Shown here: positions 25,901 through 55,297 of the stretch, piece by piece
Numbering within the stretch: the first letter of the stretch is position 1
How the letters are laid out: every line of letters begins with the position of its first letter
Source: Branchiostoma floridae
Taxonomy: Eukaryota > Chordata > Leptocardii > Amphioxiformes > Branchiostomatidae
Length of the DNA stretch: 64,000 bases
Reading direction: 5' to 3'
Assembly: GCF_000003815.2 (NCBI RefSeq)
Contig: NC_049983.1
Coordinates: 18,553,231 to 18,617,230, forward strand
Translations under genes and position numbers: made by a program
Notes under the pieces: model-generated
Seen by the model: the letters and a program-made list of their open reading frames with translations, nothing else
The model's database searches: none
Told to the model about the DNA's origin: nothing

Positions 25901-28900
25901 GAGAAAAGTACCAAATGAAAAAAAGACATTAATTACCAGGACATTTACTTACATATACAGAAGCAGTTTGTGCTGTTCACATTTGGATAGGGTTGGAAAC
26001 GCCAGTGGGAGTCAGACGCTCCACCAAACCTGACCAAACCTGATTCATTTGTTGCAAAATGGACCGTTGTTTCGTTTATTGTCCATTCACAAGTTTTCAC
26101 AGACAACCAGGTTCGGACTTGAACTGGACCTGAATTGTCTGTACTGGTACCCACCCCTGATACGGATGATTGACCAGAGTTTTATGATGTCATAGCCTGC
26201 TGCTACTCCTGTGGGGAGCCTGGGCACATCGCCCGTAGATGCACCAACAACTCGCAGGAGTGCTACAACTGTGGGGTTGTGGGGCACTTGGCCCGTGACT
26301 GCCCCAGTGGAGGCGAGCGGCAGCGTCGCAGCACCGACACCCGTAGCTGCTACAACTGTGGAGAGACCGGCCACATTTCGAAGGAGTGCCCCGAGGCGAA
26401 GGTCCCTGGCAAGTGCTTCAAGTAAGGAGTCTTCTCTCACCTCCAATCTTGGCAGAAAGTATACAGAATGAAATGGGTTGCTGTTGATATTGAGGAAGAA
26501 CTTATCTCATAAAAAAGTACAAAACTTTTCAATAGTGAAACAGGCACTGTAAAGTAAAGCTTCTGGCAGGAAAAGTTTGAAGGGCTGAGAATGAAAATGG
26601 CATGCCTCAATAAATGTTACAGTGGGACAATATGGATGCAAGCCCTTTGCAGTTAGACTTTTTCAGGAATTACTTCGGGCAGGTTGTAAAGAAAAGGAAA
26701 TTTGCCCTCGTGTCAGGAAGACAGAAACTCATCTGTCAATGCAAAAGTCTGCTAGTTACGTTAGGATTAATGGAGTAATTAGACTTGTACCTGTCAGTTA
26801 TAATGAACTGAAAAATGCACAGTAGCACATGATACAAATTGATAACCCAAGTAGTTGAGGTTAAAACATCACATTTTTTGTTGCCTTTGGGTTGGAAATG
26901 AAGAGTTTCAAAGACATTTGCGAATACAGTTTACTGAATGGAACTAAACCTGTTGATCGCTTGGTGCCACAACCATGGAAGTGCTTTGTGACGATTTAAT
27001 CAAAAGTTATATAGATACAGATCTAGATTATAAGAGGGTGACTCGTCTTGTGAAAGATGAAGATATGCTAACCTGTTACAGAATAGGACATAAGGTATAA
27101 GGTAACCTAATGAATTGAACAGAATCAGCCGCATGGCTCTAGAAATGAAAAGTTATTTTTTAATGGAAGAAATACTACAAGTACAACAAAAAAGAATCCT
27201 AAATCTATGTAGCCCCCTCCCCTATAGCTTATCCTAGTGTGTAAAAAAACAATATTATCATTCTGTCTTGGTTCCGTAGGTGCAACGAACTCGGACACTT
27301 TGCCCGTGAGTGCGATAAAGAGGAACAAGAACAGGTGAAGACAACTTCATCCGTGCTCAGTACAGGAAACTTGTCCTGCAGGCCAAATGTGGTTCATTAA
27401 GGCATATGGCAAGAGTGAAAGCTGGCTCATGGTTTGAAATGTGCATGCATGGTGATGCTTTGCGGGTGATTTGTCAAAGTTGAAGGCCAGGGAGACAAAG
27501 ACAAACTATGTCAGATCATGTATCAAGCTTGGTCTAGACAGAACTATTTACAAGTCAGGGGCCTTGACCTTTGACTTTGCACATGCTCAGTACAAACTGT
27601 GAACTGACTTATTGTTCCATGTGGCCACTTGGAGCACTTTCCTACTTAAATCCGTATGCTGCAAAGGGGCAGATATACTGCTTGGCAGTGCATATAAATC
27701 TGTTGGGTGATTGAAAATCTGAGAATGATACTGCCCTGTACTACTACAGACCTAGAGCTGAATAAACGGGGGAAAAATACAACTAAAAACTCCCAAATCG
27801 AAGTTGTTACAATTTGCTGCACTACCTAGGAATTCATGTCAACTGCTGAGAATAGAGATTGAACAAAATGGGGGAAAATGCAAATAAAACTTCCAGTTGC
27901 TATTACAGCCTAGCTTTTACGACAAGGTTTAAGGGTTTTCTTTTACACAAGCAGCAAGTCTCACCTGCTTTTGTTTCAATACTGTCTGATAGGCATCAGG
28001 TGGAAAAGAAAACTATATGTTCGACCAAACTGATACAATTATTTTCAGAAGTACCAGGGCTCGAAATTCATTTTTGGGATTAGGTGCACTGGTGCACCCA
28101 ACTTAAGAAATTGGGTGCACCAAAAATTTTTTGTGTGCACCACTTAAATTGAAGTAATAACTTAGTAATAAAACTTAGTTATATAGACATTTTTATTATC
28201 TTTCTAACACTTAGATGTCAAGAATATGATGTATACTAGTATACTTTGATATCTTTACATACGCAACCTAAGAAAATATTTGGGTACACCCTGTGCATCC
28301 ATAGAAAATAATTGGGTGCACAGCTTCAATTTTGGGTGCACATGCACCCAGTATTTCGAGCCCTGAGTACCTATAGGGACAGTTATGTAGGTCCCTAAGA
28401 AGACTTACTGCTTGTGCGACTTGCCTTCATGAACCATGTCTGGCCTGAAAGGCGTTCCAGGGTCCAACAACTTGGACAGTTTAACAGTTTTAACAGTGAG
28501 AGAGTGAGAACAGCTCCAACTAGTTATCATCTTGTTTGTCTTTCCTTCAGTTTGGCTCTTTCACAAAGTGTTCTTTGAGTTTAAATTTGCAATTTTTTTT
28601 TGGGGTGCTCTATTCTTTTTTTTTATCTAACTTTATTTTGTTTCATTAGTCTATTTAAGAAGGTTGGGCAGGTAAAAGAATGCAACATATGTATGGGGAG
28701 GAAAAACATTTACATATCTCTTTAACAAGGAGTTCAGCAAGATTTCACTGGTCTTGGAAGTATGAAGGATGAGTAGTGGCTAGTCAAGAATGTCTGAATA
28801 TTATCTATGTCTTGAAACAGAACAGTTGAATAACGCACTCATCCTATTGCAAAATAACAACAACAACAACATAACATGAAAATGAAGATATTTGATATTC

Positions 28901-42354: not shown

Positions 42355-42360
42355 TTTATT
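42355..42360 (-). terminator. SLC25A3: Candidate polyadenylation signal for SLC25A3 distal isoform
   Basis: AATAAA on the - strand lies about 530 bp after the stop of the distal last exon (7b). Confidence 0.5.
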
Positions 42361-42888: not shown

Positions 42889-43055
42889 TCACAGCTTGCC
42901 GGCAGCCTCCAGCTTCAACTTCAGACTCTCGGGCATCTCAGGCGGCGGCGGGCGTGGCAAGCGGAACTGAACTTTGACCAGGTCATAGATGAACCACTGG
43001 AGCGCCGTCAGGGTACCGATCATGAGGATACGCACACCCAGGCCTCGCCACAAGC
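42889..43055 (-). CDS. SLC25A3: SLC25A3 alternative last exon 7b (distal)
   Basis: This 167-nt exon has the same length and phase as 7a. It encodes [20 protein letters not shown] and the proline-rich end [23 protein letters not shown] before TGA. It differs from 7a at six residues: V for A, L for I, L for S, Q for V, K for R and L for K. The acceptor GTACGCAG is intact. At A/V, I/L, S/L and R/K-K/L it is further from the human sequence than 7a is. Confidence 0.85.
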
Positions 43056-46000
43056 CTGCGTACAGGAATTTTGTCACAACAAACAAAAACATAAATGAAA
43101 TCAGCGTTGGTGACACAAAAGGTCAGGCTGTTAAAGAAACGCGTGGAGTAACACTCCAAACTGGCTTGTCTTCAGTTGAACAACCAGCCAGAGAAAAATC
43201 CTCAACTTCAATGATGAGGATACTGTACACAACCCCAGACCTTGCCACAAACCTGCGTACATGGAATTCCATTGCAATAAACAAAAAGATCAATAAAATC
43301 AATGTTGGTGGGACAATAGGTCAGGCTGAAGGGGAAATCATTTATTTTGTTGAGTAACGCTGCAGACTTGCTTGTCGTCAGTTGAAAAACCAGCCAGAGC
43401 AAGATCCTTAACGTTCGATGATGAGGATACTGTACACAATCCCAGGCCTCGAAACAAGCCTGCGTACATGGAATTTCATCATAACAAAAGGTCAGGTAGA
43501 AAGAAAAAAAATGTATCTGGGTTAAATAACACCACAGCCTCGCTTGTCTTTAATTGAAGAACTGGTCCAAGAAAGATCCTCAAGTTTCAATCATGAGGAT
43601 ACACACACCCAGGCCTCACCACAAGCCCGCATACATGGAAAATTTGTTGCAATTTACAAAACATCAATAAAATCAATGCTGGTAGGCCAAAAGTTCAGGC
43701 TGAACGAGAAAAGCAAGGTTATATCTCTATATACCCTCCTTGGGAAAATGTATTTGGGTTGAGTAACATTGCAGCCTTGCTTTTTGTCAGTGGAGCAACT
43801 GGCCTGAGAAAGATCCTCAACCTTCAGTCAAGAGGATATACAATCCCAGGCCTCGCAACAAACCTGCTTATATGGAAATTTGTTGTAATAAACAAAAACA
43901 TCAATAAAGTCAACGCTGGTGGGCCAAAAGTTCAGCTCAGGCTGAAAGGGAAAATGTACTTGGGTTGAGTGACACTAGTCTTGCTTGTTGTCAGTTGAAC
44001 TGGCCTGAGATCCTCAACCTTCAGTCATTAGAATACGCAACAAGCTTGTGTACATTTCATTGCAACAAACAAAGCAGTAGTATCCAGTATTTGATTATAC
44101 TGCTGCTGGAATCCCTGACACGGGTAGGCAGCAGTCGGCTAGTCTTCACACCACACTTGCATGCGGCTGTCCAACGGGCTCACTCTAGTACTACATTTTG
44201 TAGTTAGTCCGCACACCTTGATGTCCCAAATATCAATAAAATCAATGTTAGTTTAACAACAGATTAGGCTGAAATGGAAAATATGGTTTCAGTAACACTG
44301 CAGCCTTGCTTGGAGATGGATTGTCTTCGTGGTTACACACCTGCACTGTAAGGGGTCCACTGTTGGGGGTGGAGCTCAATAGCTACTATAAAGTTGATAT
44401 TCTTTGCAGGACTACTGCACTACAGAATTGTTTTTACCATTAACATTACAAAAAGTGTTTTCCTCCAAAATTAAAACCACTGCAAAAGAAATAATTCTCA
44501 CTTATTTGGGAAAACATACTAATCAAAACCATTGGTGGTGATGGTGTTTTGGATTTGGGGCCCATGAAAGAGGAGGAAAAACATAACAGCCTCTATACAT
44601 ATATGAATCACCAGGACTGAAATGGCCATTCATAAGTAATTTCATCACCTCTTACATAACTTACCATTTTTCAAATCAGCTGCCAAAAGTGTCTTTTCTG
44701 AAAGAGTGTAACATATGGGCATACTGCTTTATGCACCAAAGAAAAACTAAACTTAAGACAAGTGAAGGATCCAGTCATCTACACATTTGTCCAATCTCTT
44801 TATTTTCACATCATCAAAACAAACATGTTTCAGAGCAGCCTTCCTACATAGTCGTATTTCATAAATACTGGTAAGGGTGCAGGGGATATCATGCCATCTT
44901 TACATCTCAATAAAAATGACTTTTATTTATTTATAGTTACAACTTTGATCAAATTGATGTTGATGCTAAAATTCCCCTGATTGAATGAAAATGACAGACT
45001 AATGACTTCTTTATCCCACTGAATTCCATAACTAAAGACGGAAGATATTTTTGCCGTCTACTCCATAAGGTCCTAATGTACATGGACAGAGTTCACTCAA
45101 AACAAGGCAGCAGGACTGGAAGAAAGGTGTTTAAAAGTTTGTATATTCATCTTAAGATCAGGTATCACATTGAGAATGGGACTTGCCTCAAGCAACTTTT
45201 CCCAGGTTCATTACCGTTATGTGGAGTCAGATTACATCCTACTTATAAAAAAGGATTTACAGTCGTCCCAGTGGTAAAAATGAGATTTGTTATTTATGTC
45301 AGACTAGCTCACACCTGTCGTTTTTTTTTTCTTCCATCTAGAAACAAGAGTTCTTCTTGACCATTTCTTGCAAGCCTAAAAATCACAGCATGACATGAAC
45401 AGCATCACATCAACAGTTGAAGATATGCTTAAGACAAAGAATGGACAAGAAGAAGTCCGTTCCCAGTCCACACCGGGCCCATGTTCGGTACGTTACAGCT
45501 TGCCGGCAGCCTCCAGCTTCTTCCTCAGGCTCTCGGGCATCTCGGGTGGCGGCGGGCGGGGCAGGCGGAAAACGACCTTGACACTGTCGTAGATGAACCA
45601 CTGCAGAGCTGTCAGGGTACCGATCATGATGATACGGGCACCCAGGCCTCTCCATAAGCCTGGTTAAAAGAAAACAAAGTGTTAGGAAGGAAATATATAT
45701 CGTTGAAAGTATGTCTAAGGGTTGATAACTAAAGCCTGGGAAAATTGTATGGCAAGCGATTTTTCACAGGTATCTGATCAAAAACTTGTCCAAAGAGGTT
45801 TTTGCTTGCATCCACTAGTTAACCATAAGCCCCAAACATTTTTCCCAGGTTCAAGAAAGCAACCTACAGCTCTGCTTTTGAAATTCTACAAATTAGCTAT
45901 GTTTACATCCATTAAGTGTAGATAATGTGTCTAATGGCTAATGTGGGCAGAGCCACTGCACAGACTTACATAAAACCAGCATCCTGCCCTAACTAACATG

Positions 46001-49000
46001 CAATTACGTAATAAAAACAGCAAACATTAACCACGTTACAAGATTACTACAGTTTCTACATCTACCCACAACTCCTGTTGTTCTACTGCATTTCAGAAGC
46101 GGCTCATGTCATTTCTTTTATAATGGGCCTTTTTAAATGGCTATTTACAATGTCATGCCAAACAAGTACACAAAGGACATGAGCAAGGCCAGACAAGACT
46201 GGACATGAAGCACACTCTCCTCACCTGGCATGACTCAACTAAAAAACTTTCTTGATGCTTTTCAAACTGCACTGTTCCAATCTGCTCAAAGACTTTCACA
46301 CACTATCTTATCTTGTTTTGACTTATCTAAAACTCTCAACTTTGTGCTATGTATATTAACCTAGCAGAATAAACCTTCTGGCTTTCTAAGATTGAAATTA
46401 CATACAAATCAAGGAGAAATGGATAAGAAATATAAAATGTAGGTAAGCTTGAAGGGTTAGTACAGGCAATGTCATTGTTGAAAAAAGGCAATCATTGAAA
46501 GATGAATTACACTGTTTGATTAATATTTATATTAAAGAAACTGTATATGAGAATAAAAAATGAGCATGAGGTGTTGTTAATAGTGAGAGAGAGAGAAAAT
46601 GTCAAAATAGGAGAACATAAGAAGATTCAGAGAAAGCAGTGATGAAAATCAAGCAATGTGATAGGAAAGAAAGCCATGAAGAGTTACTATTAAGAGAAAA
46701 TAGAATAAGGATGTGAAAGCAAATAGATGAGAAGTATACAGTTCTGGATTACAATAACTATATAATGATAATCCAAATTTCTGCAGTGGTTTATGTTCAT
46801 GCTTTTCCTGGTGACATCTTCACTACTAAATAAGCGTTTAAAAGTATTACTACTGTACTACAGAATTATTTCAACCACATATTAAAAATGCCATCAAACC
46901 TCATTTTCCTTCCTACCGCGAAATATAACCACTGCAAAAGTACCTGAATTTACAGTACATCCAAACCTCATGAAAATAGCAACTATTGTGCAAGGTGAAG
47001 TGACATACCCTTCATGCCCAGAGCCTTGGCAGCCTCGATGGCCGTGCTGCCCTTATCGTTGTTCAGCTTGGAGACCACGCTGTCGGCAGGATGGGACACG
47101 ATGGCGCAGAACACACCGGCTGCGAAAACAAGGGGGCAAAGGTCACAAACATACTGCAGTAGGACGTTATACATAGACCTAAGCTTCGTCTGCACAAGCT
47201 ATTTGGGTTTGAAGGACCTGCTCTAAGTTAGAGTCTAACAGACCAATACTTCCTGTCCATTACAATTAGCAGTTCATCCAATGAGAGAATGACATTTAGC
47301 AGTTTCAAAGGGACACCGGCTATGTGCCCATCAAATATTTACATCTTTAGTCTTTATTCTACCTTTTGGTGTAAGTGGGCAGGGCTATGGGATCAATCTA
47401 TTGCATGAATCATAGGCCAGGCTGGCAGTGCTTGACTGTGACAAACAGGCCAATATAACAGAGCCTTACCGATGTAACCAGCAACGAAGGTCACCACCAA
47501 CTGCTCGCCCTTGTTACAGTCAGCCCTGGGCTTGGGCACCACATGCTTGTACAGGGCCTCCACCGTTCTCTCGAAACAGGCAAACTTCATCATGGTGTAG
47601 GGGATCTGCCTCATCCACAGTGGGGGCAGGCCCTTGTACAACCTAGGAGAACATGAGGGATATTTCAGCATCAGAAATGAGGTGTGTATGCAGTGCAGTA
47701 AAATACAAAGTCCATTGCAAGAGTTTTGAAGCTGGCAAGACTGTGTTTTAATAATAATTGTTTATTGATTGTTGTTCCATCAATACCTAAATACATTGCA
47801 GCACTGTAGGGTGGCAAGGATATGCTTATGGCTAGGGTTAACCGAGACGTTGTACCCCTAGGAAAGGCACTAAACACCTATTTTCTCGTGCGAAACAAAG
47901 AAAGATAGAGTCTTCAAGAACCAGTGTTCTGTTAGGATATTAGGATGGATTTTTTTTTCACAGAGAGCATAACTTAATAACAGGACTGTGGGACTCACCC
48001 GTTGATTCCCTCTGCATTGTAGATCTTGGGGAAGCCTTCTCTCAGGGTGTTGGCAAACCCAGGCATGGTCTGGATACGCACCTTGGTAGCCTCCCATGGA
48101 GCCAGCAAGATGTCGGCGAAGAACTCAGCACTGGCGCTGGCAGCCAGGTACAGGGAGGTCCGGTATGTGTAAGAATATTCCTGGGACACGGAAATAAAAC
48201 TTAATGTCACATACAATACATACATTATTGATCATGACAAAACAGCGTCTTACGAACATACATTTTATCTTCTGTTCTTATAAATACATGTAACAAAAAA
48301 TCAGCTTAAACTAATGGCTACTAAGAACTGGAAATCTTACCTCTCCCAGGAGATTTCCATAGAAGACCTTGAAGATTTCGTAGAAGCCAAACTTGCCCAG
48401 ACCTTGTAGGGAGTAGCCGATGAAGGTTGGGGCCCAGCCCTTGGCCAGGGCACGAGCACCCTCCTCCGTAAACGTAAGTCTCAGACCATAGATGAGGTTC
48501 CTGTACTTCCCTGGGTCAACCTGCAGTGGTTCATTATACAGTACATGGTAAGCATAAAAAGCTAAATTAGAGACAGTTGGACTAGTCTTGAATTTAACTT
48601 ACATTAAAATTACAATAATTTTCAGCTGTTACCTTTTACTCCTCACAATCACACTATGCAATACTTTATATTTCAAGGGAGTTGACTAATGTACAGTAAT
48701 GAAACTTGTGCTGACCTGAATGCGGCATTTCACCAGATCCAGGGGGACGATGGCTGTATGTGTGAGGCCACAGCTCAAGATGCCTCCAAAACCACACAGG
48801 GCATAGTACTTGGCACTCCCAAACTCACAGCTATCTCCTAAACAGAAGAGAGAGACAAATTATTACAAATGTTGACATTTTTAAGGTGGTTAATTCATTA
48901 ATGTTCACATTTAACACTTATGCCCTCTGCAAAAACACTTTCTTCTGTCCTCCTGTCCCATAGTTTCAAAACTCGAATACACTGAATTTTTTTCCTACAG

Positions 49001-49967
49001 CAAAATCAACTTGTGGCATTGTTAAAGGCATTTACAGTAAGTTTATTTCATTTTATACGATTTAACGCTGATAGTCACAATCTTATGAGAAGTCCTCACC
49101 ACCCCCACAAATCTCAATCCCTGAAAAATTCCTATGAAAGGTCTGGAAGAAGGTTATCGCGGAACCAATGAAAGCTCATTCAATTATCAGACAGACAAAA
49201 TTATATACAAAATGAATGTTTATTGTCTTTCTAGTCCAACAAAAGAGTTTGGGCTTCTTTTTGCCGTCACCTTGGGGGGAATCCTCAAGTTACATTTACA
49301 AAAAACAAACACAAAAGCAGTTTCAGAAATATCATGAAAAATAATTTGCACAGACACAGTACTAGATACAAGCTGTGACCTTTGCAATAAGGTTAACGGT
49401 CAAAGGCACGTGGGTTGACCTGAAATGTTGGACTTTTGCCATAGACAGATACCCAGGTCATGTTGCACTGGGCGGTCACCCCAAAGTCAGCACAATATAA
49501 GGTGACCCAGCAATGATCTCTAATAGTAATACACATTTACTCACGTAAAAATTTATTGAAACACAAAATATACATGTTGTGAAGGTTCACGAGTAATAAT
49601 TGTACCAGAAGCCGTAGTTTTGCAGATGGACGGAAGCGTTTCTACCCAAAAATTTCCACGTGTGTTCCACTGGATAATTATGGCGCGCTACACGGCCCAT
49701 GAAAGAACAGAAAAGTTCTGCATGTAGAAGTGCCATGAAAGCTTTCACAGGCCGCATGCCGGCAAATACTGGTACATATCCTTGGCTGTAGGAACAGTAG
49801 TACAGCTACTAGTCGATAAACCACTGACCTTCCGCGGCCGCAGCAGCGCCAAGACTTCTTGTTGGAACTAGGGCGCCATCTTTCGCCGGTGCCCTCCCCT
49901 CGCACTGCGCCTGGAACGGGCTGAAGAAAGGGTTGCATTTTGCGACCTCTCGGAACGAGGAAAACAT
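42889..49967 (-). CDS. SLC25A3: Mitochondrial phosphate carrier, two alternative last exons
   Basis: SLC25A3 imports phosphate with protons across the inner mitochondrial membrane for ATP synthesis. Exons on the - strand: 49967-49829, 48837-48716, 48520-48341, 48180-47999, 47642-47470, 47119-47009, then either 45659-45493 (7a) or 43055-42889 (7b). Either choice gives 357 residues in frame (human 362). The first 46 residues are a presequence-like extension beginning [15 protein letters not shown]. Carrier signatures are P-L-D-L-V-K at 78-83 and P-W-E-A-T-K at 175-180, with the third-repeat [11 protein letters not shown] in exon 6. [13 protein letters not shown] and [13 protein letters not shown] match the family closely. 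The ATG has A at -3. The gene shares an upstream region with PDHB. Confidence 0.97.
43056..44330 (-). repeat. SLC25A3: Tandem array of partial exon-7b copies
   Basis: Units of about 170-240 bp begin around 43024, 43216, 43423, 43595, 43832 and 44031. Each includes the first 35-45 nt of exon 7b with its acceptor region, plus intron sequence with AAAATCAA(T/C) and CAGGCTG blocks. Acceptors are kept in the copies at about 43250, 43460 and 43870 but lost in the one near 43630. No copy keeps a full exon, and frames are broken soon after the acceptor. Confidence 0.85.
44922..44927 (-). terminator. SLC25A3: Candidate polyadenylation signal for SLC25A3 proximal isoform
   Basis: AATAAA on the - strand lies about 570 bp after the stop of exon 7a and before exon 7b. 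Transcripts using 7a could end here. Confidence 0.5.
45493..45659 (-). CDS. SLC25A3: SLC25A3 alternative last exon 7a (proximal)
   Basis: This 167-nt exon starts [20 protein letters not shown] and ends KKLEAAGKL before TAA. It is closer than 7b to the vertebrate sequence (RIIMIG, YDSVKV) and so probably represents the ancestral exon. The acceptor is TTTTAACCAG. Confidence 0.93.

Positions 49968-50475: not shown

Positions 50476-55297
<4,822 letters not shown>

Follow-up and report, generated by a model that had tools for sequence, protein, structure and literature searches.

A duplicated last exon in an amphioxus gene resembling SLC25A3 and a row of decayed exon copies beside it

The locus described here raises the question of whether a single mitochondrial carrier gene of Branchiostoma floridae, whose last coding exon is present twice, makes two proteins with different C-termini. 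The window, i.e., the whole stretch of DNA analyzed, comprises 64,000 nt (contig NC_049983.1, positions 18,553,231 to 18,617,230), and all coordinates below refer to it. Spliced translation revealed that the frame running through the six upstream exons continues into both last exons, 7a and 7b, so that two proteins of 357 residues are predicted.

Gene structure and the two last exons

The exons and poly(A) signals are as follows:

49829-49967, minus strand: exon 1, with the start codon at 49967 (supported by an open frame, a consensus donor, and spliced translation)
48716-48837, minus strand: exon 2, single copy in the window (spliced translation, tblastn)
48341-48520, minus strand: exon 3 (spliced translation)
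47999-48180, minus strand: exon 4 (spliced translation)
47470-47642, minus strand: exon 5 (spliced translation)
47009-47119, minus strand: exon 6, with a donor G/gtatgt (slash, splice position) that would serve both 7a and 7b (spliced translation)
45493-45659, minus strand: exon 7a, proximal last exon, 167 nt, own stop (sequence, acceptor scoring)
44799-44931, minus strand: poly(A) signals of 7a, AATAAA occurring three times (first bases 44931, 44927, and 44804)
42889-43055, minus strand: exon 7b, distal last exon, 167 nt, own stop (sequence, genome search)
42355-42360, minus strand: AATAAA poly(A) signal for 7b (sequence)

Both predicted isoforms carry three Mito_carr repeats (PF00153; E 6.6e-49 and 2.6e-48), which places them among the SLC25 mitochondrial carriers. 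The name SLC25A3 (mitochondrial phosphate carrier) is our assumption, based on likeness to vertebrate SLC25A3; the six PDB matches are other carriers. A search of the genome (513,431,437 bases in 431 contigs) with the 357-residue protein at E up to 0.001, in which only the best candidates were scored, resulted in 11 listed matches, namely eight exons of this gene, including 7a and 7b, and three other carriers with 28-31% identity. Among these listed matches there was no second close gene, and exon 2, presumably the counterpart of vertebrate SLC25A3 exon 3A/3B, occurred a single time. Likewise, when exons 1-6 and 7a were compared with the window by tblastn (E up to 0.05), a second copy was detected for exon 7 only, so that a duplication of the N-terminal-side exon was not found in the window. 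This agrees with the earlier note on this DNA, which had placed the choice at the C-terminus and not at a pair of the vertebrate 3A/3B kind. Altogether, the locus is likely to be an animal SLC25A3 gene with a tandem-duplicated last coding exon.

The coordinates of the pair, the length of 167 nt each, the shared entry phase, the own stop codons (TAA and TGA), and the six residue differences, all given before, were correct on re-check. The end of exon 6 at 47009 contributes one base of the codon split with the last exon. Counted from this codon, 25 of 165 nucleotides differ between 7a and 7b, 14 of them at codon position 3, and 6 of 55 residues are changed (A8V, I11L, S26L, V30Q, R46K, and K47L). 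At the DNA level, the match is 85% over 168 nt, with a BLAST E of 1e-50 in the window and 8.7e-46 in the genome, a likeness far beyond chance; searched against the genome, the DNA of 7b matched itself, 7a, and one fragment of the decayed copies described below (U2). Homology stops downstream at the stop codons and ends upstream 3 nt (BLAST) to 13 nt (ungapped extension) before the acceptors, beyond which the intron tails differ at 39 of 74 aligned sites. Thus, the two are tandem homologous last exons of the same phase and similar length. The motif [FY][DE]xx[RK] is kept in both as YDSVK and YDLVK, with S26L lying inside it; we take the YDxxK motif to belong to the gate that these carriers have on the cytosolic side.

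Judged by consensus sites, each last exon has an acceptor, a stop codon, and a poly(A) signal of its own. Acceptors were scored with a matrix not trained on this species; with it, 7a scored 8.36 (rank 6 of the 245 AGs between 46990 and 42889) and 7b 7.56 (rank 10). The five remaining acceptors of the gene span 4.26-10.53, which includes both values. A CTAAC branch-like site and a U-rich tract precede the 7a acceptor, and the pyrimidine tract is poorer in 7b (47%) than in 7a (82%). The downstream AATAAA previously reported for each exon is present, though calling it nearby was generous, since the distance is 562 nt past the stop of 7a and 529 nt past that of 7b; in 7b, ATTAAA occurs in addition 69 and 317 nt past the stop.

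Decayed partial copies between 7a and 7b

While the earlier account of the pair was borne out, it had missed a tandem array in the spacer. Between 44340 and 43133, five decayed partial copies (U0-U4) follow each other with a spacing of mostly 170-240 bases. Each unit resembles the end of the intron before 7b (roughly 75 nt) together with the acceptor and at most the opening 43 nt of 7b (28 of 43 nt in U0); the remainder of a unit, some 60-120 nt, is without a match to the exon. In detail, the units and the adjoining intron tail are:

43947-44340, minus strand: U0, split by sequence private to this unit, with AA in place of the acceptor AG; the exon-like part lacks 15 of 43 nt and has an in-register stop after 10 residues
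43705-43946, minus strand: U1, with the intron tail, an AG preceding 43863, and 43 exon-like nt; the frame stops after 15 residues
43502-43704, minus strand: U2, acceptor AG changed to GG, stop at the fourth codon
43331-43501, minus strand: U3, AG before 43459 retained, exon-like part with an insertion of 5 nt
43133-43330, minus strand: U4, AG before 43252 retained, with an insertion of 5 nt where U3 has one
43056-43132, minus strand: intron tail of 7b, homologous to the units, with a second acceptor-like CAG/CCTGA at 43127

All five units are broken as exon copies. Five sites in the first 43 nt differ between 7a and 7b, and at these, 22 of the 23 cells readable in the units agree with 7b; the one exception, in U2, has a letter found in neither exon, and U0 is gapped in two cells. 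Therefore, the array derives from 7b after its split from 7a and is younger than the exon pair. The tail of 7b itself is about as different from that of 7a as unrelated DNA. Among each other, the units differ by 11-37% without the badly aligned tail of U3 and by up to 51% with it, and we read the array as probable debris.

A dispersed element was rejected as the source, since a 425-base array query gave five matches in the genome, all at this locus, in a search that skips very common words. Full-length exon copies were likewise rejected: beyond the first 43 nt, comparison of the five units one by one resulted in P 0.27-0.65 with 7b and 0.06-0.33 with 7a. For a hand-made consensus, the comparison with the rest of exon 7 gave uncorrected P values of 0.035 (7b) and 0.0055 (7a), so that the unit remainders may have a faint relation to it. 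No RNA family matched at its gathering score.

Apart from the exon-type acceptor, a second acceptor-like site, CAG/CCT, was identified in five of six units when the tail of 7b is counted (minus strand, 44268, 43941, 43699, 43325, and 43127). In four of these units, the distance from this site to the exon-type acceptor downstream is 72-78 nt, and in the interrupted U0 it is 223 nt. By the same matrix, these sites rank 1, 2, 3, 8, and 9 of the 245 AGs between 46990 and 42889, i.e., above 7b. Joining exon 6 to any of the five leads to an alanine followed by a stop; such use, if it occurred, would give a carrier without the last helix.

Constraint on 7b and the weighing of explanations

Comparison of 7a with 7b according to Nei and Gojobori resulted in a dS of 0.495, which is not convertible to years here, and a dN of 0.084. 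Since such a low pairwise ratio could stem from 7a alone, we simulated one copy as fully constrained and the other as free. At 25 nucleotide changes, six or fewer residue differences were reached with P 0.0007 (3000 draws per setting, three transition biases); with the two triple-change codons taken as one event each (21 events), P was 0.002-0.008, and with every multi-change codon counted once (19 events), 0.007-0.031. In these pairwise simulations, both exons are thus under purifying selection (P 0.0007-0.031), while a 7b held more loosely than 7a (ratio 0.3 versus 0.05) is also compatible with the data (P 0.11-0.21). Hence, 7b is probably constrained, perhaps less than 7a, and probably a used exon, though gene conversion between the copies could mimic constraint by lowering divergence. 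Relatives for polarizing 7a versus 7b were not found in genome_contigs or viral_contigs, as expected for an animal gene.

The 7b branch was examined separately with the decayed units as yardstick; U3, which aligns badly there, was left out of most tail columns. Polarized with 7a, columns private to 7b numbered 0 of 43 in the exon and 10 of 77 in the tail, where polarization is not possible (P 0.013), or 0 of 43 and 7 of 74 after dropping three gap-adjacent tail columns (P 0.046). Unpolarized, the counts were 3 of 43 and 10 of 77 (P 0.37), and by majority 7 of 43 and 16 of 77 (P 0.63).

Taken together, we consider it probable, at roughly three chances in four, that the gene makes two versions of the protein by alternative last exons. 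This reading, already proposed before, remains the best one, given that frame, acceptor, stop, and poly(A) signals are intact in both exons and a wholly unconstrained 7b was rejected in simulation, but its support is partial. We infer that both exons are probably spliced in vivo and that the products may differ in function. In the simplest model, the donor of exon 6 would join 7a as the default and the transcript would end at the poly(A) site of 7a; alternatively, as a regulated choice, 7a would be skipped, its poly(A) site passed over, and exon 6 joined to 7b, 2.6 kb downstream. The six residues that distinguish the two carriers would then lie in the last membrane helix and the tail, and our guess is that this would tune kinetics rather than confer a new substrate. 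After the duplication, both copies would have been retained by purifying selection; a later tandem amplification of the 7b acceptor region (some 75 intronic nt, at most 43 nt of the exon, and roughly 60-120 nt of other DNA) would have produced five extra copies, which then decayed as debris.

Alternatively, 7b might be a relic, i.e., an old duplicate out of use that stayed open by chance or through gene conversion from 7a. Such an origin seems rather unlikely, because a free copy should have accumulated more residue differences (P 0.0007-0.031) and the frame, stop, acceptor, and poly(A) signals of 7b are all intact, even though its poorer pyrimidine tract, the decayed copies preceding it, and the 7b-branch tests that are not polarized (P 0.37 and 0.63) speak for it. 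The stronger acceptor-like sites with immediate stop in the array and the 7b tail, as scored with the matrix above, also count against two isoforms. Against a recent conversion, the 7b letters shared with the decayed copies persist in the first 43 nt and were not wiped out by 7a. An assembly artefact, with two alleles or a misjoined paralogue set in tandem, is hardly credible: the assembly is in 431 contigs and the window contains 629 N, but 7a and 7b have unrelated flanks and are 15% different from each other, and among the genome matches listed exons 1-6 are present once and no further copy of exon 7 lies on another contig.

The array could also be functional in itself, with its acceptor-like sites acting as decoys that restrain splicing to 7b or giving rise to a truncated carrier without the last helix. 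Several features would suit such a role, namely the exon-type AG kept in three of the five units (two score 7.35, close to the 7.56 of 7b) and the CAG/CCT sites in five of six units, all among the top nine of 245 AGs and each with an immediate stop. Moreover, duplicated exons are described as controllable through 3' splice-site features, as in U2AF1 (PMC5224494). We nevertheless consider this quite improbable, as features common to the units are expected from common descent, a divergence of 11-37% (up to 51% with the tail of U3) fits decaying DNA, the exon-type AG is lost in U0 and U2, and the matrix was not trained on this species.

Comparison with known systems and neighbouring features

In vertebrate SLC25A3, exons 3A and 3B are reported to be mutually exclusive internal exons towards the N-terminal end (PMC7226361, PMC5740500). 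By our own assignment, the amphioxus gene belongs to the same gene family, but its duplicate is the last exon, so that poly(A) sites would take part in the choice as well, and there is one copy of the exon 2 region. The layout of a last-exon pair is shared with KRAS 4A/4B, described as two alternative, mutually homologous final coding exons whose exchange affects the C-terminus alone, in an unrelated protein; for 4A, the same preprint suggests an origin from NRAS exon 4 and not from local duplication (PMC9882654). Among human events of tandem duplicated exon substitution, 77 of 236 are reported to swap homologous C-terminal regions, with terminal events enriched (PMC9741552). The main text of that study mentions neither SLC25A3 nor amphioxus, lancelet, or Branchiostoma, and in the passages considered here no array of decayed partial exon copies is described. 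In the open-licence literature, covered mostly as titles and beginnings of abstracts, no title on this exon pair was among the matches listed. Homologous alternative C-terminal exons are an already known class, to which 7a/7b appears to add a fairly well supported case, while the row of exon fossils beside 7b is unusual.

Should both isoforms exist, exon duplication would have diversified one essential carrier gene at different places in two chordate lineages, and the contribution of the last helix and tail to transport could be compared directly. That amphioxus acquired a last-exon switch independently of vertebrate 3A/3B and in addition uses the array at the 7b acceptor as decoys to tune the choice is a speculation to which we give very little credence. 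In any case, the locus records an order of events, with an exon duplication that survived followed by a younger amplification that failed, leaving decayed copies beside an intact exon.

Further features were observed in the window. About 1.2 kb past the poly(A) signal of 7b, and in the same direction, a frame (41198-39519, minus strand) encodes DnaJ, zuotin-like, and C2H2 zinc-finger domains and, as we assume, resembles DNAJC21. On the other side, a gene with transketolase-type domains (52328-54644, plus strand), presumably similar to PDHB, is directed away from the carrier gene; its span encloses 9.8 copies of a 30-bp repeat (53907-54199). In addition, we detected a Pex26 domain fragment (36501-36139, minus strand) and a frame with three CCHC zinc knuckles (26174-26422, plus strand).
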